In this document: piece after piece, positions 1 through 6,846 of the stretch
How positions within the stretch are numbered: the first letter of the stretch is position 1
Layout: every line of letters starts with the position of its first letter
Source: a bacterium
Lineage (GTDB): Bacteria > UBP15 > UBA6099 > DSWB01
Assembly (NCBI GenBank): GCA_020061125.1
Contig: JAGUYV010000322.1
Span: forward strand, 1-6,846
DNA: 6,846 nt
Direction: 5' to 3'
The notes under the pieces: generated by a model
Database searches by the model: none
What the model was told of the DNA's origin: nothing
What the model saw: only the letters and a program-made list of their open reading frames with translations
Translations under genes and position numbers: made by a program

Positions 1-165
1 GCAGGTGGCCACATAGCGGCCGTGCGGGCCTCGCGCGATGCGCAGGTACTCGGCGCACAGCGGGCATGTGGCCTGCATCAGCTCCACGGCGTCCACCCCG
101 GCCGCGTGGCCATGCTCGATGTAGGCGGTGATGACCATGTCCCACGCCGCCAGGGCCTGGGCCAC
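1..165 (-). CDS. Partial small protein with a CxxC motif (N-terminal 55 residues), cut by the left edge
   Basis: I do not recognise this gene with confidence. The minus-strand frame that ends exactly at base 1 has strongly GC-rich third positions (runs such as GTG GCC CAG GCC CTG GCG), unlike the other two frames, so I take it as coding. The first start codon in frame is GTG at 163-165, with AAAGAG about ten bases upstream; an alternative ATG lies at 136-138. The frame stays open upstream of the GTG, but there it runs through repeat DNA and has no other start. Visible residues include AWDMVITAYIEHGH and, near residues 34-37, CPLC, followed by a further Cys at residue 55, the last complete codon. 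This spacing suggests a zinc-ribbon-like knuckle whose second half lies off the window. Phages often carry small cysteine-rich proteins of this general kind, with no assigned role. In lambda-like tails the gene after L is usually an NlpC/P60 peptidase (K); nothing visible here matches that. Confidence 0.5.
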   Translation of the reverse strand, partial: MAQALAAWDMVITAYIEHGHAAGVDAVELMQATCPLCAEYLRIARGPHGRYVATC

Positions 166-179
166 AAGAGCAAGCTCTT
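166..179 (-). repeat. Short inverted repeat directly upstream of the GTG start
   Basis: AAGAGC and GCTCTT form a 6-bp stem around a 2-base centre, ending one base before the GTG of the partial left gene. The AAAGAG that could serve as its ribosome site lies in one arm. Pairing in the mRNA would hide that site, so it could influence initiation; this is inference. With a 2-base loop the hairpin would have to open its innermost pair, and chance occurrence is possible. Confidence 0.35.
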
Positions 180-203
180 TATTGGAATATTCTTTATATA
201 AGC

Positions 204-362
204 GCGCAGGGCGCTGGGCGCTGGGCGCTGGGGAAAGGCAAGGATTATCACGGAAATCACGGAGGCTCGGAGAACACGGAGAACCCCCGTTTTTTTGCGG
301 CCGCAGGCCGCGATCCCTGTGCCCCTCTGTGGCCTCTGTGGTTGTCATTGCCTTTGCCTTTC
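204..362. repeat. Composite intergenic repeat block between the L-like gene and the left gene, arranged head to head
   Basis: On the plus strand, 204-231 is a 7-bp tandem array: one GCGCAGG followed by three GCGCTGG. Next come GAAAGGCAA (233-241), a GGATTATC joint and degenerate nonamers related to ATCACGGAG (243-285). After a T run (290-296) and a GCGGCC-GCA-GGCCGC hairpin (297-311), the same modules return in reverse complement: CCCTCTGTGGCCTCTGTGG (323-341), a GTTGTCA joint and TTGCCTTTGCCTTTC (348-362). The outer ends GAAAGGCAA (233-241) and TTGCCTTTC (354-362) match perfectly, giving a 130-bp imperfect inverted repeat. The right end overlaps the TGA stop of the L-like gene (361-363). No coding sequence is visible between 166 and 360. 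Confidence 0.75.
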
Positions 363-1194
363 AGTACTTCACAATCTGTTCAGCGAGCGACACGAAGCCG
401 CCGAAGTTGTCCGTGTTGCTGAACCTGCTGTCGCAGGTGTTCCAGGACTGGTCGCAGCCCTGCTGGAGCGTGTACCCGTCGCCGGCCGCGGGCGCGGCCG
501 AAAGCGCGTGTTCGAGTGTCACGGTTCCGGACGCGCTCGACAGCACGCGCCGCACCTGCCCGCTCGTGGCCCCGCTGGTCATGGTCAGGATGCCGTCTTT
601 CCAGTAGTCGTCGGCCTCTGTGCGGGCCGCGTCCGCGATCTCGCTTGCGGTGGCGCCCGCGTCACAGGTCTGGGCGGTGACTTGCGTTGTGCTTGCGTCA
701 AACGCGCAGTCCGAGTCCCCGAACACCCAGGGGCAGGACTTGTCGAATATGCGGCGCGGGCAGGTTCTGTCCAGCTTTGCCATCTGGCTCTTGCCGTGCA
801 CCTTGCAGTCGTCCTCATCGAGTTCGGTGTGCGCGCAGGTTCCGCTCCACACCATGACCGGGTCGCCGATGACCGCGCCCGCGGCGTTGAGGAACACCTG
901 TTGCAGAACCATGCCGCCGCCGCGCAGGTCGTTGGCCACGGCCGCGGCGGCCAGGGCGGCGTCCACATTGTCGAGCGTGATGGTGATGGGATCCGTGGCC
1001 AGGGTGGTGTTCATGCCCGCCTGGCCAAACTCCATGCCGCGGCTGTAATAGGTGTCCGAGTCCACGACCAGGTTTTCTTCCCAGTCCGTGTAGCGCAGCG
1101 CCGAGCCTCCGGACAGGGTGAGTTCGAGGATGTAGCAGAAGGTGACGGCGGGTTGGCCGATCTCGGTGATGACATCCGCGTGGAGTGTGCGCAT
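361..1194 (-). CDS. Tail-tip protein of the DUF2163 / phage BR0599 type (lambda gpL counterpart)
   Basis: This is a complete protein of 277 residues. It starts at ATG 1194, with AGGAG nine bases upstream (1204-1208), and ends at TGA 361-363. The N-terminal two thirds are beta-rich, as in the DUF2163 family (the YILELTL stretch near residues 21-27, then ITITLDNVD near 70-78). The C-terminal end, GCDQSWNTCDSRF near residues 246-258 followed by NFGGF, is close to the BR0599 C-terminal pattern of GCD, seven residues to a second Cys, RF, then NFGGF. Family members are distal tail proteins joining the tail tube to the tip, in the same slot as lambda gpL and the gene-13 protein of gene transfer agents. 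Those relatives bind an iron-sulfur cluster. Cys154, Cys163, Cys247 and Cys254 are the likely ligands here, by position only. Cys120, Cys130, Cys145 and Cys177 are extra and could form a second metal site or disulfides. Confidence 0.85.
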   Translation of the reverse strand: MRTLHADVITEIGQPAVTFCYILELTLSGGSALRYTDWEENLVVDSDTYYSRGMEFGQAGMNTTLATDPITITLDNVDAALAAAAVANDLRGGGMVLQQVFLNAAGAVIGDPVMVWSGTCAHTELDEDDCKVHGKSQMAKLDRTCPRRIFDKSCPWVFGDSDCAFDASTTQVTAQTCDAGATASEIADAARTEADDYWKDGILTMTSGATSGQVRRVLSSASGTVTLEHALSAAPAAGDGYTLQQGCDQSWNTCDSRFSNTDNFGGFVSLAEQIVKY

Positions 1195-1203
1195 TTTGGA
1201 AGG

Positions 1204-1208
1204 CTCCT
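1204..1208 (-). promoter_or_regulatory. Ribosome binding site of the L-like gene
   Basis: AGGAG on the minus strand sits nine bases before ATG 1194. It lies just beyond the 28-bp repeat at 1218-1245 and supports this start. Confidence 0.7.
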
Positions 1209-1217
1209 AAAGTCAAC

Positions 1218-1246
1218 GGACACCGCGGAGACGCGGAGCCGCGGAG
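1218..1246. repeat. GC-rich nonamer-like repeat, copy 1
   Basis: A purine-rich plus-strand element lies in the 62-bp gap between the 64-residue gene and the L-like gene. It contains CACCGCGGAG, ACGCGGAG and CCGCGGAG in tandem, so the unit CGCGGAG recurs every 8-9 bases. It starts 11 bases after the end of the gene-L ribosome site and ends 10 bases before the upstream stop, filling the gap without touching either. Bases 1218-1245 match 1481-1508 at 27 of 28 positions (C/T at base 22). Confidence 0.8.
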
Positions 1247-1256
1247 GGCACATGAA

Positions 1257-1451
1257 TTACAGGCCCATGTCGTAGTTGGAGACGAAGTCCACGCCCTTTT
1301 CGGTTATCACGATGGCGGTGCCGCCCTCGATGGCCGCGCGCTGGAGCGCGTTCAGGAACTGGAGGAGCTGGCCGTCGTGGCCCATCGTGCTGAATGGCGT
1401 GTCTTCAAGCATGTTGGAGATGCGTTGCGCGGCTTCACGGTTGTTGTTCAT
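1257..1451 (-). CDS. Hypothetical 64-residue protein
   Basis: I do not recognise this protein. It starts at ATG 1451 (MNNNREAAQRIS) and ends at TAA 1257-1259. The start is chosen because GAAGGGGG lies about eight bases upstream. A longer in-frame start at 1577 would read back through repeat DNA and the end of the 120-residue gene. The N-terminal half (EAAQRISNMLEDTPF, then QLLQFLNALQRAAIEGG) looks helical, and the last 20 residues (AIVITEKGVDFVSNYDMGL) look like one or two beta strands. There are no cysteines, signal peptide or membrane segment. It sits between two copies of the 28-bp repeat, downstream of the methylase and 120-residue gene and upstream of the L-like tail gene. By position it could be cargo or a small tail-assembly accessory protein; nothing in the sequence decides this. 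Confidence 0.65.
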   Translation of the reverse strand: MNNNREAAQRISNMLEDTPFSTMGHDGQLLQFLNALQRAAIEGGTAIVITEKGVDFVSNYDMGL

Positions 1452-1459
1452 TGGTGTTG

Positions 1460-1467
1460 CCCCCTTC
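1460..1467 (-). promoter_or_regulatory. Ribosome binding site that fixes the start of the 64-residue gene
   Basis: GAAGGGGG on the minus strand is followed after eight bases by ATG 1451. It is the only good Shine-Dalgarno match in this frame and argues against the longer open frame that reaches through the neighbouring repeat. Confidence 0.65.
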
Positions 1468-1480
1468 AAATTTTTTTCAA

Positions 1481-1508
1481 GGACACCGCGGAGACGCGGA
1501 GTCGCGGA
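1481..1508. repeat. GC-rich nonamer-like repeat, copy 2
   Basis: This second copy of the element at 1218-1245 is in the same orientation and differs at one of 28 bases. It lies between the stop of the 120-residue gene and the ribosome site of the 64-residue gene. The two copies therefore flank that small gene almost exactly, one on each side. Confidence 0.8.
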
Positions 1509-1512
1509 ATGT

Positions 1513-1875
1513 TTATTCTCCGGCTTCGCCGGGATCCTGGGGCGGCGGCGTAAGATTGTGATCGCGCATCTTTGCACCGCCTATGAACTTGACACCCGGG
1601 ATACCCGGGCCGGGCTGAAAAATTGGAAGCACGGACTCGGGCGCGTCATCGGGGCCGCCGATGATGACGCCCCTCTTTGTGATGTCCGGAATCACGCCGC
1701 CCGCTGGGCCGCTGGTCTCGATGTACTCGACCTCGGCCTTGTTGATGGAGATGCGCCCGCCATCAGGTTTTTCGAAGTGCATCCACACGGTGTCGCCGGT
1801 CCAGTCGCCCTTCACGGTCTTGTAGTGCCCGCTCTTGAATGCAATAAGGGTTTCGCCCTGTTTCACATTTGCCAT
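1513..1875 (-). CDS. Hypothetical 120-residue protein coupled to the methylase gene
   Basis: I do not recognise this protein. ATG 1875 lies five bases after the TGA of the methylase gene. The ribosome site GAGGG is inside the last codons of the methylase, so the two are very probably translationally coupled. The protein ends at TAA 1513-1515. Residues 1-55 have the alternating pattern of a small beta-barrel (LIAFKSGHYKTVKG, TVWMHFEKPDGG, RISINKAEVEYIE). Residues 56-120 are glycine- and proline-rich (GPGIPGVKFIGG, TPPPQDPGEAGE) and probably disordered. There are no cysteines, membrane segment or catalytic motif. Coupling to the methylase suggests the two arrived together, but a functional link is inference. 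It could also be an ordinary phage accessory protein. Confidence 0.7.
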   Translation of the reverse strand: MANVKQGETLIAFKSGHYKTVKGDWTGDTVWMHFEKPDGGRISINKAEVEYIETSGPAGGVIPDITKRGVIIGGPDDAPESVLPIFQPGPGIPGVKFIGGAKMRDHNLTPPPQDPGEAGE

Positions 1876-1880
1876 GATGT

Positions 1881-2825
1881 TCAGCCCTCACTTGTATCTT
1901 GTTTGGTGCGGTACACGGCGCGTGGTTCGCGCACCTTAAAGCGGTCGTCATTGGCCTGTTTCCAGGCTTTAAGCGCGGCCGGGTTGCGCCACACGGTCTC
2001 GGTGCGCGGCTGCATTTTTTTGGCCGCGCCAGCGCCGATTATGCCCGTGCCGCGCGTGCGCCCGGCGGCCATGCACGCGGTCTCGAAATCCACGCGGTCC
2101 CAGCCTGCGGCTTCGAGCGGCGCATAGAGTTTGTGCGCGTAGCCTGACAGCATGACCATGCCGGGATACTCCAGAATCACGCGCACAAGCCGCTCGTGGT
2201 CCGCCGCCGTCAGCTCGTGCGCATATCCGCCGCTCTTGCGCGTGTCCGGAATGTAGGGCGGGTCCAGGTACGCCAGGGTCTCGGCGTGGTTGTGGCGCGC
2301 GAGCACCTTTTCCCAGGAGTCGTGCTCGATCTGCACGCGCATGACGCGCGCATGAATCGCGGGCAGCAGCTCGAAGATGGACAGCAGGCGGCTGGTCTGG
2401 CTGGCCATGCCGCGGTTCGAGCTGGTCACTCCGTAGCCCCAGCTCGCGCCGAAGTTTCCGGCAAAGGAATTGCGAGCCACCACGAACCATTTGTAGGCCA
2501 TCATCACCGGGTCGGTTTCATTGGCCCAGGTCTCGCGGCAGTAGTTGTATTCCGCGCGGCTGAACGGCGTGTGCAGCACCAGGTGGTAGAACATGTTGAA
2601 CAATTCCGGATCGCGCATCACGCGGAAGAAATTCACCAGGCCTTCGTCCGCGTCGTTGTAGGTTTCCACGGCTGACGGCTCCTTGGCGAACAGCAGGCTT
2701 GCGCCCCCTCCGAACGGCTCCACATAGAACTTGTGCGGCGGCATGAGGCCCAGCAGCTTAGCGGCCATCGCGCCCTTGCCGCCGAACCATGTGATCGGGC
2801 TTCGCAGTTTTTTTGTCTTGTCCAT
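1881..2825 (-). CDS. D12-class DNA adenine-N6 methyltransferase (Dam-like)
   Basis: This 314-residue protein is of the usual size for the Dam/D12 family, which transfers a methyl group from S-adenosylmethionine to N6 of adenine in a short target, often GATC. Motifs come in D12 order: ITWFGGKGAM near residues 11-20 (FGGK), the cofactor-binding EPFGGGASLLF near 36-46, the acidic ND near 57-58, the catalytic DPPY at 188-191, and a C-terminal RTETVWRNP near 274-282. All key residues are present, so it should be active; target specificity cannot be read from the sequence. ATG 2825 is chosen because GGAGAGGG lies just upstream and because the frame before it (to 2945) is translated repeat DNA. Phages use such enzymes to evade host restriction or alter gene control. 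Its place between the M-like and L-like tail genes is unusual. It overlaps nothing and is followed after five bases by the 120-residue gene. Confidence 0.93.
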   Translation of the reverse strand: MDKTKKLRSPITWFGGKGAMAAKLLGLMPPHKFYVEPFGGGASLLFAKEPSAVETYNDADEGLVNFFRVMRDPELFNMFYHLVLHTPFSRAEYNYCRETWANETDPVMMAYKWFVVARNSFAGNFGASWGYGVTSSNRGMASQTSRLLSIFELLPAIHARVMRVQIEHDSWEKVLARHNHAETLAYLDPPYIPDTRKSGGYAHELTAADHERLVRVILEYPGMVMLSGYAHKLYAPLEAAGWDRVDFETACMAAGRTRGTGIIGAGAAKKMQPRTETVWRNPAALKAWKQANDDRFKVREPRAVYRTKQDTSEG

Positions 2826-2829
2826 GATT

Positions 2830-2837
2830 CCCTCTCC
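2830..2837 (-). promoter_or_regulatory. Ribosome binding site that fixes the methylase start
   Basis: GGAGAGGG lies on the minus strand with four bases between it and ATG 2825 (eight counted from GGAG). It follows GAGACAC and itself resembles the local nonamer repeats (ACACGGAGA), so it may derive from repeat sequence. Confidence 0.65.
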
Positions 2838-2894
2838 GTGTCTCATTGATTGCCCTGCGGGCGGCGCGGTTCGGCGGCCGCGCCCTGCATCTTT

Positions 2895-2994
2895 TCTTTG
2901 CGCCCTCTGCCTCTCTGCGCCCTCTGTGTCCTCTGTGGTTATCATTGCCTTTGCCTTTGCTTTTCCCTACGCGCTACCCGCTACACGCAACTCG
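2895..2994 (-). repeat. Composite intergenic repeat block between the M-like and methylase genes
   Basis: Read on the minus strand from 2994, four 7-bp units come first: CGAGTTG, CGTGTAG, CGGGTAG and CGCGTAG (2967-2994). An AAAGC and AAAGGC linker follows (about 2946-2966), then GATAACC, then purine-rich nonamers CACAGAGGA, CACAGAGGG, CGCAGAGAG and related units (about 2895-2937). The first heptamer begins just beyond the stop of the M-like gene (3001-3003). The remaining 2838-2894 contain GC-rich sequence with a GCGGCCGC palindrome (2874-2881) and no gene. Confidence 0.75.
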
Positions 2995-3000
2995 CTCGCC

Positions 3001-3348
3001 TCACGCCGTCACCTGCCGCAGCGGCACCCTCACGCGGAACCGCTTGTTCCCCGTTTTCTCGAAGGTCAGCTTGTCCGTGTCAAAGCGCACCAGGTACTGC
3101 GTGGAATCCAGCAGGCAGGTCCAGTGGAACGCCTCGTAGCGGCCCTTGCGCGCATTAAAAAAAGTCTGCATGCCCGTGGCGTCGCTCTCCGTGAGCGTGC
3201 GGAAATCAAGATCCCAGCTCTTGAGCGCCGATGCGCGGCGGCTCGCGCGGCGCTCGGTTCCGTTGCGGCTGGCGCTCACGCCCGTGTCCCACTCATCCGA
3301 GACCGGGTACGTGTAGTTTGGCGTGTATGTGAATTCAGGCGTGGGCAT
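3001..3348 (-). CDS. Minor tail protein resembling lambda gpM / DUF2460
   Basis: This 115-residue protein lies between the tape measure and L-like genes in transcription order, the slot of lambda gpM or the DUF2460 (gene-12) protein of gene transfer agents. These form part of the distal tail ring. The pattern fits: an early SRNGTERR near residues 27-34 (like the G-x-x-x-R turn of these families), LKSWDLDFRTLTESD near 42-56, FFNARKGRYEAFHWT near 63-77 and a final beta strand RFRVRVPLRQV near 103-113. Its length is close to gpM and well below a typical DUF2460 protein of about 200 residues, so it may be a minimal form. ATG 3348 is chosen over an in-frame start at 3393 because GGGAG lies nine bases upstream and the extension would be translated heptamer repeat. 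The product ends at TGA 3001-3003. Confidence 0.75.
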   Translation of the reverse strand: MPTPEFTYTPNYTYPVSDEWDTGVSASRNGTERRASRRASALKSWDLDFRTLTESDATGMQTFFNARKGRYEAFHWTCLLDSTQYLVRFDTDKLTFEKTGNKRFRVRVPLRQVTA

Positions 3349-3355
3349 GTGGGCA

Positions 3356-3386
3356 GGCTCCCGTCTCCCGGCTTCCGGCTTCCGGC
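3356..3386 (-). repeat. 7-bp tandem array upstream of the M-like gene
   Basis: On the minus strand from 3386: GCCGGAA, GCCGGAA, GCCGGGA, GACGGGA, then a partial GCC. The period is exactly seven through four units. Plus-strand order is heptamers, then an AAGGCAAAAGCG-type linker (3386-3410), then the palindrome at 3413-3498. Confidence 0.8.
3358..3362 (-). promoter_or_regulatory. Ribosome binding site of the M-like gene, located inside a heptamer repeat
   Basis: GGGAG on the minus strand is nine bases before ATG 3348. It spans the last complete heptamer (GACGGGA) and the first base of the next partial unit, so the gene seems to use repeat-derived DNA for initiation. Confidence 0.6.
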
Positions 3387-3412
3387 AAGGCAAAAGCGAA
3401 ACCGAAACCGTT

Positions 3413-3498
3413 GATCACGAATTGGCACGAATTAAAGGCGAATAAGCACGAAGACTCGTTCGTGTGCATTCTGGTTTTATTGGTGTTCATTCGTGATC
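3413..3498. repeat. 86-bp imperfect palindrome with GATC at both ends
   Basis: The outer ten bases GATCACGAAT (3413-3422) and ATTCGTGATC (3489-3498) pair perfectly. The inner CACGAA (3447-3452) and TTCGTG (3459-3464) pair perfectly around a 6-base loop. Without gaps, 29 of 40 arm positions pair; the middle 24 contribute 13. Matches cluster in CAC, AAT, AAA and GAAT groups, so each arm is itself a degenerate tandem of a CACGAAT-like unit. It could form a cruciform in DNA or a long stem in the tail mRNA. It contains no coding sequence. Confidence 0.8.
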
Positions 3499-3595
3499 CG
3501 CCTTTCGCCTTTCGCTTTTCCCTGCGCCCTCTGTGGCCTCTGTGGTTATCCTTGCCTTTCGCCTTTGCCTTTGCCTGCACCCTGCGCGCTGCACC
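3499..3595 (-). repeat. Composite repeat block adjoining the tape measure stop
   Basis: On the minus strand from 3595: heptamers GGTGCAG, CGCGCAG and GGTGCAG (3575-3595), a GCAAAGGC and GCGAAAGGC linker (about 3551-3574), GGATAACC, nonamers CACAGAGGC and CACAGAGGG (about 3527-3545), then GCGCAGGG and a second AAAAGCGAAAGGCG linker (3499-3526) leading into the palindrome. The array begins just after the tape measure TGA (3597-3599). The whole 248-bp gap 3349-3596 is accounted for by repeats. Confidence 0.78.
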
Positions 3596-3596
3596 C

Positions 3597-6500
3597 TCAC
3601 CCCGCGAAATACTGGCGCATCACGCCCGCGTTCTCGATGTCCGTGGCCACGGCGAGCGGCGCCACGGCGCGGGCGCTGGCCTCGGCGATGGCCGCGATGA
3701 TTTGCCCGCGGGCCTGCACAAAGCTCTGGGCGTCGTCCGTGCGGATGTTGAACTGGTAAGTGTTCTGCACAATCTGCTGCTGATTGCCCGCGCCACCGCG
3801 CAGAATTTCCACGGGAATCTTGCGGTTGCGGCTCAAGGGCACCGCTGCCTCTGGCCCGGACTCGCCGAAGATGGCCGGGCGGTCCGTGACGCCGCCCTCG
3901 GCGAACAGGCCGAACACGGACAGCAGCCCCGCGGCCTTGCTGCCCTTGGGCGGGCCTGCGGAGACCGTTCCGTCCGGCTGCATGCCGCCGCCGAACAGCC
4001 CGCCGCCGAACAGGCCCATCATCATCTTGCGCGCCAGCATGTCGCTGAACGCGCGAATGTACATGTCCCGGATGTTGCCGAGCATGTCGCGCCACAGGTC
4101 CTTGATGCTCGAGATGTCGCGCTTAAAAAACGCAAAGAAAGTGTCGCTGAAACCCGTGCGCAGCCGCTCCGCGGCCTGCTGGCCGAACTCCACCATGATC
4201 TGCGCATCCTGCGCGAAGCGGCTCACCGTGTCGCTCCACCCCTGGCGCATGGCTTCCTGCTGCCCGATCTCGTTGTCCTGGATGCGCCGGCTGATCTCCT
4301 CGCGGATGCGCACCTTTTCGGCCTCGGCCGTGGCCGTGTCCGAGAGCATGCGCTGAAGCTGTGCAAACTCGAACTGCGCCCAATAGCCAGCCTGCGCCTT
4401 TTTGTGCTCCATTTCCGCGGCGTCTATTTCGCGCAGCTTGAGGCGGTACTCGCGGTGCAGTTCGGTGAGGTCGCCGTACTCGATGCGCTTGTCTTCGTAG
4501 TCGCGCCGGGCCGCTTCGCGCTGCACATCGAACTCGGAGGCCCCGGCCATGCGGATGTCCGTGAGGCCGCGGGCTTTCTGTTTCGCCGCGGCCGCTTCCT
4601 GCTGTTTTTTCTGCCGCTCTTCCTCGTCTATTCGCGCCAGTTCTTTCTTTACATACAGGTCTCCCAGTTCCCTGGCTCTGGGCGCGCCCACGGCCCCGGC
4701 GTTTTCTTCATATATCTCCTGTCCTCTTTTCCGCGCGTCGCGCCGGGCCTTGTCCTCGGGACTCATCACAAGCTCTGTTTTGAGTTCCCTGAACAGCGCG
4801 TTCTGTTCAATTTTCTTCCTGGCCTCTGCCTCGAAGTCTTCGAGCATGTCCGTGAGCCTGCCTCCCAGCCTGTTCAGGTTCTGCTCGCGCTCCCTGGCAT
4901 CGCGCTCTGCCTCGGTGCGCGCGCGCTCCGCGGCGGCCGCGCGCTTTTCATTCACACCGGCGTACCATTGCTCGTCCTCAAACGCCTGGGGTCCGCTGGC
5001 CATGCCGCCTTTCAGCGCCGCGAACCAGCGATTAAATTTCTGCGCATTTTTCTGATCGGCAAATTGCGCGTGTATGTGCGCGCCGGTTGAATCATCGCTC
5101 GGGTCCAGATATTCGTCCTTCACATAGCCCTTGACCCCGGCCTGCCGCAATAATCCCTCGATGTATTTTTTCACGGCCGCCGATTCAGAGGCGTTTTTCA
5201 GCTTGAAGTCCAGGGCCAGGCCCTGCGTGTGCTTTCCTTTTTTATGAAATTTGTCGTTGAACGCCGTGAACTCGTCCACGAAACCCTGCTCGTTCAGAAA
5301 ATGCGCCAGCGCGTAGGTGCCCTGCTGCGCCGGGCCGCGGTCCTCGGCTGTCTTTTCCCTGGTTTTTTTCGGAGCGGCCAGCGTCTTGGGTTTCATGAAT
5401 CCGCTCATCCTGCCGTACAATTCCTCGAAATTGCCCGTGCCGGCCGCTGCCTTGCGGCCATCAGATCCAATGAGGGGCTGCTCGTATTCTTTTATCTGCT
5501 CTCCAAGCCCTCCGCCAGGCGCGAACCGCTTTTCATATTTCACGTTTCCGGCCATGACCAGTTCCATCGTGCCCTTGAGTTCGGCCGCCTGTTTCGAGAG
5601 CCTCACAAATTCGTCCGCGGACAGCTTTTTCCCAAACGCCGCGAAGTCGGGCCGCCCCCTGGGATCTTCAACCAGAACCTCGCGCAGTTCCTTGTGCCAG
5701 GTCCCCGATGCCGGATCGTAGACCATTTGCGGCATTTTCTTTTTTATCTTTGGTCTGGTATTGTGCTCGTCGCTCGTGAACGCGCCGCCCTGTCGCAGTA
5801 GGCGCTCATCTGTTTGTTTGCCCGTTTCTTCGCGCCCCGTTTCGCCATACTCGCCGCGCGAGCCGAGCGCCCCCGCAATTTCAATTGTCTCGTAAGCCTT
5901 CTTGTATTCCTCCCAAGCCTTGCTTCCGCCCTTGTTCAGCTCGGCCTTTATTTCTTCAGGCGTCATGCCCTCGTATTTTTTCGCGATTTTCTGCGCGGCC
6001 GCCAGGCTGTTCATCACCGTCTCGGCCCGCGCGTTCCGCGCCTTTGCGTTGGGCTGCTCGTCAAGCAGGTCCTGAAGCTCCTTCTTGGCGTCGCTGGCCT
6101 GCCTGATCATGTCCGCCAGTTCCATCACTTTGCCTATGGCATAAGTCAGCACCGTCATGAACCCCGCCAGGGTCAATGCGTTAAGAGACGCCCCGAACGA
6201 TTTCACTTTGGTCGCCGTGTAGCCCACATCTGTGGTGAATGTGTCCAGCTTGACAGAGGCCGCGGCAAGGGCTAACTCATACGCCGCCAGCGCCGAGCGC
6301 ACGGCCTCAATGGCCGCGCTGAATTTCTTGTATGCGGAGAGCATGCCGGCCACAATGGCCACGGCCGCGACCATGTGCCGGTTGTCGGACAAAAATCTGA
6401 ATAACGAGACCGCGCCCGCAAGCAGCTTTTTGGTCCACTCGTACATGTCCGTGAGTGCGTTGCTCGCCCGCTTGGCCCACTTTTCGAGCTGCCCGTTTTC

Positions 6501-6846
6501 GGCAAGTTCATCCACGGAGGCGAGAAGCCTTCCTATTTCCTTCTTCGCAAAATCAAACACGCCGGCGTCCGCGATCCTGTTCAAAAACAGGACCCAGGCG
6601 TCCTGCATCATGCTGATCTGCCCGGCCCAGGTTTTGGCCATCTTGTCCGTCATGCCGCCGATGCCGCTCTCCGCGCTCGACGCCGCCTCGAACATGGCCT
6701 TGCGGAATTCTTCGAGCGACATGTTGGCCAGGTCCGACGCGTTCTCAAGGCCCTTGAAATCCTTAATCACATTCAGAATGCCGCGCTCGCGGAATATGTC
6801 CGCGGCCCCGGCCCCGGCGCTGAACGCGCGCCCCGCGGCCGCCGCC
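3597..6846 (-). CDS. Tail tape measure protein with internal LAS/M15-like peptidase domain, N-terminus beyond the right edge
   Basis: The frame is open to the right edge, giving 1082 visible codons; the start is outside. A GTG at 6770 (residue 1 below) is only an internal codon, since coding sequence (AAGRAFSAGAGAADIFRERG) continues above it. Tape measure proteins set tail length and pass toward the cell during infection. Evidence: great length; alternating helical and hydrophobic stretches (about 132-147 and 196-217); long charged coiled-coil segments (about 600-735 and 745-845); and a lambda gpH-like C-terminus with FFKRDISSIKDLWRDMLGN (879-898), a glycine-rich stretch and GESGPEAAVPLSR (969-981). 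Residues about 485-580 hold a peptidase-like domain: HTQGLALDF (His514, Asp521) matches HxxGxAxD of M15 peptidases, and GAHIHAQF (His565, His567) could give the third zinc ligand. It ends at TGA 3597-3599 and heads the tail operon seen here. Confidence 0.9.
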   Translation of the reverse strand, partial: AAAAGRAFSAGAGAADIFRERGILNVIKDFKGLENASDLANMSLEEFRKAMFEAASSAESGIGGMTDKMAKTWAGQISMMQDAWVLFLNRIADAGVFDFAKKEIGRLLASVDELAENGQLEKWAKRASNALTDMYEWTKKLLAGAVSLFRFLSDNRHMVAAVAIVAGMLSAYKKFSAAIEAVRSALAAYELALAAASVKLDTFTTDVGYTATKVKSFGASLNALTLAGFMTVLTYAIGKVMELADMIRQASDAKKELQDLLDEQPNAKARNARAETVMNSLAAAQKIAKKYEGMTPEEIKAELNKGGSKAWEEYKKAYETIEIAGALGSRGEYGETGREETGKQTDERLLRQGGAFTSDEHNTRPKIKKKMPQMVYDPASGTWHKELREVLVEDPRGRPDFAAFGKKLSADEFVRLSKQAAELKGTMELVMAGNVKYEKRFAPGGGLGEQIKEYEQPLIGSDGRKAAAGTGNFEELYGRMSGFMKPKTLAAPKKTREKTAEDRGPAQQGTYALAHFLNEQGFVDEFTAFNDKFHKKGKHTQGLALDFKLKNASESAAVKKYIEGLLRQAGVKGYVKDEYLDPSDDSTGAHIHAQFADQKNAQKFNRWFAALKGGMASGPQAFEDEQWYAGVNEKRAAAAERARTEAERDAREREQNLNRLGGRLTDMLEDFEAEARKKIEQNALFRELKTELVMSPEDKARRDARKRGQEIYEENAGAVGAPRARELGDLYVKKELARIDEEERQKKQQEAAAAKQKARGLTDIRMAGASEFDVQREAARRDYEDKRIEYGDLTELHREYRLKLREIDAAEMEHKKAQAGYWAQFEFAQLQRMLSDTATAEAEKVRIREEISRRIQDNEIGQQEAMRQGWSDTVSRFAQDAQIMVEFGQQAAERLRTGFSDTFFAFFKRDISSIKDLWRDMLGNIRDMYIRAFSDMLARKMMMGLFGGGLFGGGMQPDGTVSAGPPKGSKAAGLLSVFGLFAEGGVTDRPAIFGESGPEAAVPLSRNRKIPVEILRGGAGNQQQIVQNTYQFNIRTDDAQSFVQARGQIIAAIAEASARAVAPLAVATDIENAGVMRQYFAG

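Follow-up and report, generated by a model that had tools for sequence, protein, structure and literature searches.

The 6,846-bp stretch of DNA studied here (the window) is the entire contig C78 of a metagenome-assembled genome (MAG) of 4.12 Mb in 513 contigs, and it encodes part of a phage tail operon interrupted by three intergenic gaps, at 166-360, 2826-3000 and 3349-3596. These gaps carry copies of a dispersed repeat that lies between host and phage genes. It is probably a mosaic similar to the bacterial interspersed mosaic elements (BIMEs), with copies passed on from one intergenic site to another. The repeat is a composite of short periodic modules. It forms a dispersed family with a fixed module order and an intergenic, stop-proximal placement, shares its gaps with repetitive extragenic palindromes (REPs) and, in the phage, undergoes exchange from site to site.

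Composite elements in the gaps of the window

Read on the minus strand, each gap holds 6-mers (AAAGGC or AAAAGC) followed by a joint (GAYAACC) and by CACAGAG nonamers. A preliminary description of this DNA had proposed that the three gaps share one modular architecture, which the composite model used here recovers in all of them with the E values listed below. It had also given a common order of 7-mer, 6-mer, joint and nonamer. The last three modules do follow this order in every gap, while the 7-mers occupy the outer position, except in gap 166-360, where the minus-strand arm starts right at the stop codon. Mirrored arms, likewise noticed before, are present in gaps 166-360 and 3349-3596, and gap 2826-3000 consists of one arm plus a REP. 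The boundaries of the gaps, set by gene calls and homology, are exact.

166-360, minus strand: composite element 1, in the gap from the baseplate hub gene to the next gene; 6-mer/joint/9-mer arm, GCGGCCGCAGGCCGC hairpin, and mirrored 9-mer/GATTATC/AAAGGC/7-mer arm
204-232, plus strand: 7-mer array GCGCTGG x4, outer end of the mirrored arm (Tandem Repeats Finder, TRF)
231-282, plus strand: mirrored arm with AAAGGC, joint GATTATC (243-249) and CACGGAG nonamers (249-281); match to composite model R1, E 2.3e-5
295-313, no strand: GC palindrome GCGGCCTGCGGCCGC at the tip of the hairpin
306-362, minus strand: main arm with AAAGGCAAAGGC, joint GACAACC (340-346) and nonamers CACAGAGGC, adjoining the hub stop codon (361-363); R1 match, E 5.9e-16
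2826-3000, minus strand: composite element 2, in the gap from the DUF2460 gene to the methyltransferase gene; single arm plus REP, lacking a long hairpin
2863-2890, minus strand: GTAG-type REP (ATGCAGGGCGCGGCCGCCGAACCGCGCC) with the head GCAG; 2 of 28 bases differ from the REP flanking the transposase gene on contig C84
2911-2966, minus strand: 6-mer, joint GATAACC (2937-2943) and nonamer arm; R1 match, E 5.4e-13
2967-2996, plus strand: 7-mer array CTACNCG, outer end (TRF)
3349-3596, minus strand: composite element 3, in the gap from the tape measure gene to the DUF2460 gene; full hairpin with CACAGAG arm, inner hairpin of the CACGAAT type and outer 7-mers
3356-3386, plus strand: 7-mer array CTTCCGG (TRF)
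3410-3500, no strand: internal inverted repeat built of CACGAAT units, GATCACGAAT...ATTCGTGATC, whose middle is swapped for other sequence in a relative phage
3512-3574, minus strand: 6-mer, joint GATAACC (3544-3550) and nonamer arm; R1 match, E 1.2e-13
3574-3596, plus strand: 7-mer array CCTGCAC/CCTGCGC adjoining the stop codon of the tape measure gene
1217-1246, plus strand: half-module GGACACCGCGGAGACGCGGAG, of an 8/9-mer class with its own joint (repeat search)
1480-1509, plus strand: half-module, a direct repeat 96% identical to 1217-1246 (repeat search)

The two half-modules, of 28 bp (~1217-1246 and ~1480-1509), bracket an open reading frame (ORF) of 64 aa at 1257-1451. The earlier inventory of gap modules was accurate, but it had noticed neither these half-modules nor the REP (2863-2890), nor how far the family extends through the genome. 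Two small phage ORFs, each with CGCGGAG modules on both sides (window 1257-1451; contig C259, 2156-2332), were considered as a paralogous cassette; this was set aside, as the likeness was seen by eye and homology was not clear.

A dispersed repeat family in the host genome

The general architecture of the family is (7-mer)n-(AAAGGC)n-AATGATAACC-(CACAGAGGN)n, with a GC hairpin and a mirrored arm following in that order. In the main class this becomes (7-mer)-(AAAGGC)-GATAACC-(CACAGAGGN)-GC palindrome-(CTCYGYGN)-mirror joint, and the consensus of the copies is GCAAAGGCAATGATAACCACAGAGGCCACAGAGGGCGCAGAG. By BLAST, a 76-bp stretch of the window has 56 matches in the host genome, on ~25 contigs. 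The composite model, a sequence-only model built from 37 copies and used with a cut-off of E<=0.01, identifies 64 copies with the same module order, spread over 49 gaps on 34 contigs. All but one (63/64) lie in predicted intergenic DNA, in sampled sequence that is 86% coding. Moreover, 19 copies have their 5' end at most 40 nt after a same-strand stop codon, about threefold the 5.7+-2.2 expected for matches scattered randomly within the gaps they occupy (2,000 trials, maximum 13). Regular expressions for the modules are also strongly enriched in gaps (contigs C1-C64), as compared both with coding DNA and with dinucleotide-preserving random sequence. The suggestion of a defined element family, or of a copying process that preserves architecture, is thus supported by the scan, in which copies are same-ordered, intergenic and concentrated beside stop codons, and by the comparison with a relative phage.

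Whole gaps can be aligned with one another, at 70-94% identity over 70-540 bp, and composite gaps compared side by side are chains of hairpins. Other classes carry joints of their own (GATTGAC-GCAGAG, TTAACCACGAAG, GGACACCGCGGAG and GATCACGAAT), and none of these classes has a match in reversed-sequence controls. The phage contigs C78, C8 and C259, which amount to 19.5 kb or 0.47% of the assembly, carry 12 of the 64 composites, a 40-fold excess.

The same genome holds a second intergenic repeat family, around AAAGGGGGATCAAGGGGGATGT and CCCCCTTGATCCCCCTTAGAAAAGGGGG, on contigs C14, C34 and C64 (L043, L062, L091), which is enriched in gaps and almost absent from coding sequence.

Turnover of the elements between related phages

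The viral contig IMGVR_UViG_3300007072_000142 (L194) encodes the same tail genes as the window phage, with 88-90% protein identity. All four comparable junctions hold composites in both phages (gap D was compared via C8), and the comparison shows composites exchanged or partly replaced between gaps. In the gap between the tape measure protein (TMP) and DUF2460 genes, the outer ends are common to both phages and the middle differs: the window has a hairpin of CACGAAT units, L194 one of CACAGGG/GCGGCCTGCGGCCGC/CTCCGTG. Over 128 bp, the TMP-DUF2460 gap of L194 and window gap 166-360 share 87% identity, while only 67 bp of the latter can be matched to its own counterpart. The best match is therefore a copy from a different junction, which indicates that copies move between sites. 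Furthermore, copies inside one phage resemble each other as much as copies at corresponding sites, a pattern that fits copying between sites and not strict descent. The interval between DUF2460 and the hub holds a single composite in L194, whereas in the window it contains a composite arm, the methyltransferase gene, two ORFs and two half-modules.

Association with REPs and RAYT genes

A frequent neighbour of the composites is TGTAGGGCGGCGTCGCCGAACGCCGCCGCCG, with 27 copies, 10 of them identical; a reversed control contained no copy of this REP (TGTAGGGCGGC). This REP, module Q (TGTAGGGCGGCGTCGCCGAACGCCGCC), has a GTAG-type tetranucleotide 5' of a short stem-loop. In the stem, 98% of the cells are paired and three pairs show double changes, with a covariation score reached by 0 of 500 shuffles. 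REPs tagged with GTAG accompany REP-associated tyrosine transposases (RAYTs) (PMC3733652, PMC2817692), and three RAYT genes of this genome score above the curated NF047646 cut-off, each with REPs alongside. The one on C84 reaches 101 bits (cut-off 80) and has REPs on both sides. Module Q and window 2863-2890 thus have the features tested for GTAG REPs, namely the head, a compensated stem and a REP-flanked RAYT gene in the genome. The RAYT genes on C406 (L142) and C79 (L143) are flanked by a second REP type, GTAGGGCGGGGTCACCGCACCCCGCCG, so two or more REP/RAYT systems coexist.

Of the 27 REPs, 21 have a composite at a distance of 350 bp or less, where roughly 6% would be expected to, and at L012:1860-2010 an inverted REP pair is enclosed by inverted composite arms. 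BIMEs of Escherichia coli bind gyrase, IHF and Pol I. Two of the sequence features of BIMEs are found here: an extragenic location, in 63 of the 64 copies, and alternating inverted palindromic units with interspersed motifs, in arms mirrored around GC palindromes or REPs and in the inverted REP pair of L012. This link to REP/RAYT elements, together with the BIME-like mosaic assembly, is an addition to the earlier reading. Most composites lack the GTAG-type head of REPs and of the REP doublets forming hairpins (REPINs), and, when compared with classical miniature inverted-repeat transposable elements (MITEs), their arms are mirrored and their ends variable.

It is conceivable, though somewhat unlikely, that the RAYT (TnpA-REP) proteins of this genome mobilise the composite in its entirety, as a miniature transposon of the REPIN kind. 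Such mobilisation would agree with the presence of REP-flanked RAYTs, the proximity of REPs to composites, the nested inverted pairs of L012 and the REP in window gap 2826-3000. Nevertheless, most composites, including those of the first and third window gaps, have no GTAG REP. Besides, the REPs are near-identical, 10 of them exactly so, while the composites share 70-94% identity, which indicates that they are not moving as one unit; the six REPs found away from any composite indicate that REPs move alone.

Hairpins and a possible role in messages

Folding gives long hairpins for gap 3349-3596 and for its counterpart in the relative phage, with z scores of -2.65 and -2.84, and a less stable structure for the gene strand of gap 166-360 (z -1.57). 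Rfam covariance models gave no match above the gathering score; two weak matches elsewhere were at chance level. These hairpins, the stop-proximal starts, and the retention of structure between phages despite a changed middle sequence would be expected if the composites were functional elements of RNA 3' ends, or protein-binding sites, under selection, in which post-stop hairpins would shield or end transcripts, a function suggested for the REPs and BIMEs of Escherichia coli. This explanation appears unlikely, given that both orientations and divergent gaps are occupied, that half copies without a hairpin persist, that most host genes have no copy and that none occurs in six genomes of the same order. 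A role at the 3' end of messages is nonetheless possible alongside copying between sites, with which it is compatible and not exclusive.

Copying of a BIME-like mosaic has its own difficulties. Gap 2826-3000, a half element, folds no better than shuffled sequence (z +1.43), and the median z of all composite gaps differs modestly from that of control gaps (-1.58 against -0.94); both results indicate that long hairpins mark full copies and not all copies. GTAG REPs are missing from window gaps 166-360 and 3349-3596 and from most other composites. Neither target-site duplications nor sharp element ends could be defined, with no close empty site available. In the comparison of empty sites suggested in the preliminary description, empty junctions occur only in phages that are ~25-36% identical, and the near relative L194 is filled at all four junctions. 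In favour of copying, the genes of those distant phages (L193, L195 and Paracoccus phage R3) overlap at the junctions or are packed to within a few bases, in agreement with the earlier statement that tail operons of this kind are usually tightly packed.

Slippage and assembly artefacts

Independent, neutral growth by replication slippage on the spot, producing convergent low-complexity DNA, is very improbable. The periods are short, and periodic motifs recur in other phyla. In addition, pure (GGCAAA)n arrays of at least 16 units occur at C81:13450-13546, a contig end, and at C183:1-96, a contig start; they are probably one locus split by an assembly break, and suggest active slippage of the 6-mer. 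However, a column-by-column alignment of 37 copies preserves both the succession of 6-mer, joint and 9-mer and the joint itself, which is not periodic; conservation of the joint columns partly reflects the selection of these training copies, which were chosen by their joint. The BLAST matches and genome-wide E values are free of this effect. Multi-module alignments of 100-300 bp connect many loci, and the same joint arising 60 times is beyond the reach of slippage. An artefact of assembly or binning, in which the composite contigs would be chimeric or come from another organism, is hardly credible: the MAG is fragmented (79% complete) and the composite contigs are often short, but their GC and tetranucleotide composition match the rest of the bin, which also rules out contamination as a cause of clumping, and an independent metagenome contig (3300007072) has the same elements at the same junctions.

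Distribution beyond the host

When the composite model was run against 59 other genomes, no full-length match was obtained and 48 genomes had no match at all. Six genomes of the same order have no copy. In other lineages the model matches chiefly the nonamer half. A pattern for ACCAC-nonamers, ACCACRGAGNNCACRGAG, is found in 45 of 386 genomes sampled across the domain (12%), against two control matches in total, and in 0 of the 6 order-mate genomes. These nonamers form hairpins bounded by ACCACAGAG...CTCTGTGGT and stand beside 7-mer arrays in some genomes. In the unrelated genomes G053 (L130, L137) and G030 (L123, L132), (GGCAAGA)n/(GCCTACT)n or (TTCCAGG)n 7-mers directly adjoin CTCTGTG/CTCCGTG nonamers, an independent instance of 7-mer and 9-mer adjacency. 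At L129 (G051:C196), at least three near-identical ACCACAGAG...CTCTGTGGT hairpins stand in tandem at the contig end.

Among the genomes searched, no lineage but this one, with its phages, has the composite of 6-mer, joint and 9-mer; the preliminary description had suggested that the composite, unlike its motifs, might be new. The nonamer syntax is widespread and patchy, in line with the mention there of similar nonamers in other uncultured bacteria. Two isolated 20-mer matches to the exact composite in GTDB representatives, with no surrounding modules, were taken as chance. The short joint pattern occurs in 18 viral contigs, but the composite is present in just two of them, the window contig and L194; most others match no more than model positions ~17-41. 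In the open-access literature, as far as an incomplete library covers it, the nonamer strings appear in primers only and no description was found.

A broader proposal would be an undescribed class of intergenic elements with a common syntax (class-specific joint, nonamer hairpin arms and heptamer arrays), copied independently of RAYTs, patchy across many phyla, and providing phages with recombination joints through which accessory genes could be taken into structural operons. This extension is tentative and, on present evidence, unlikely.

Gene context of the window

The window, also catalogued as IMGVR_UViG_2880805847_000001, has all its genes on the minus strand, including two small ORFs between the methyltransferase and hub genes. 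The following were assigned by gene calls and homology:

3597-6845, minus strand: tape measure
3001-3348, minus strand: DUF2460 gene
1881-2825, minus strand: D12 (Dam-like) adenine methyltransferase
361-1194, minus strand: baseplate hub
1-165, minus strand: next gene after the hub (start only)

The D12 methyltransferase gene sits inside the tail operon and is missing from the 88-90% identical relative phage. A peptidase-like stretch (..HTQGLALDFK....AHIHAQF..) seems, by eye only, to be present at residues ~560-650 of the tape measure. Contig C8 encodes head and neck proteins together with a tape measure N-terminus, whereas lysis functions and a late activator are encoded on C259; although their contig ends do not overlap, both are probably further pieces of the window phage or of a sister phage.

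Proposed mechanism and its significance

The element may be regarded as a hairpin-forming chain of outer 7-mers, AAAGGC 6-mers, a GATAACC-type joint, CRCRGAG nonamers and a GC palindrome or GTAG-type REP, followed by the mirror image. Transfer of whole or partial copies from one intergenic site to another would proceed through homologous recombination, gene conversion or template switching primed by hairpins, processes that common periodic modules may favour. REPs within composites would be moved, now or formerly, by the resident RAYTs, and the 6-, 7- and 9-bp arrays may grow and shrink through slippage, which the pure (GGCAAA) runs would fit. Phage copies might double as recombination joints; consistent with this role, the methyltransferase and two small genes lie between composite pieces in the window and are absent from L194.

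If copying is confirmed, these elements would represent a natural case, in both the host and its phage, of intergenic cassettes with a constant syntax and changing letters, and the evolution of BIMEs and of phage gene junctions would become directly testable. The lineage-private composite is also useful as a marker by which phages can be connected with an uncultured host; with its help, IMGVR_UViG_3300007072_000142 was singled out as a phage of the same or a near host.

Comparison with known systems

Boundary or linker sequences have been proposed to mediate modular exchange in phages. As in those systems, similar junction sequences here bracket genes that differ between relatives, but the composites are a host-wide repeat family and not phage-specific. 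Short-unit intergenic arrays that are patchy across phyla are also represented by the heptamer repeats of cyanobacteria known as short tandemly repeated repetitive sequences (STRRs). Another example is the intergenic TAACTGA heptamer of Beggiatoaceae (PMC4679880). Heptamer repeats are single-motif and mostly upstream of start codons, whereas the composites have at least four modules in fixed order, downstream of stops.

With regard to GTAG REPs (PMC3733652, PMC2817692), TGTAGGGCGGCGTCGCCGAACGCCGCC and window 2863-2890 share the GTAG (or GCAG) head, an 8-bp stem, compensatory changes and the position flanking RAYT genes. Contrary to the composites, the REPs described in those papers lack 6-mer, joint and nonamer arms, and most composites here have no GTAG REP. 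BIMEs and REPINs (PMC3116915) resemble the composites in being intergenic mosaics of palindromic units and short motifs in which inverted pairs form long hairpins; the difference is that the additional motifs here are 6-, 7- and 8/9-bp arrays with class-specific joints, often without a REP. Where REP and composite occur together, their layout is that of a BIME (PMC2817692, PMC3116915, PMC3733652), and the composite is best classed among the mosaic, BIME-like intergenic repeats, as a new variant specific to this lineage, and not as a REP, REPIN or MITE.

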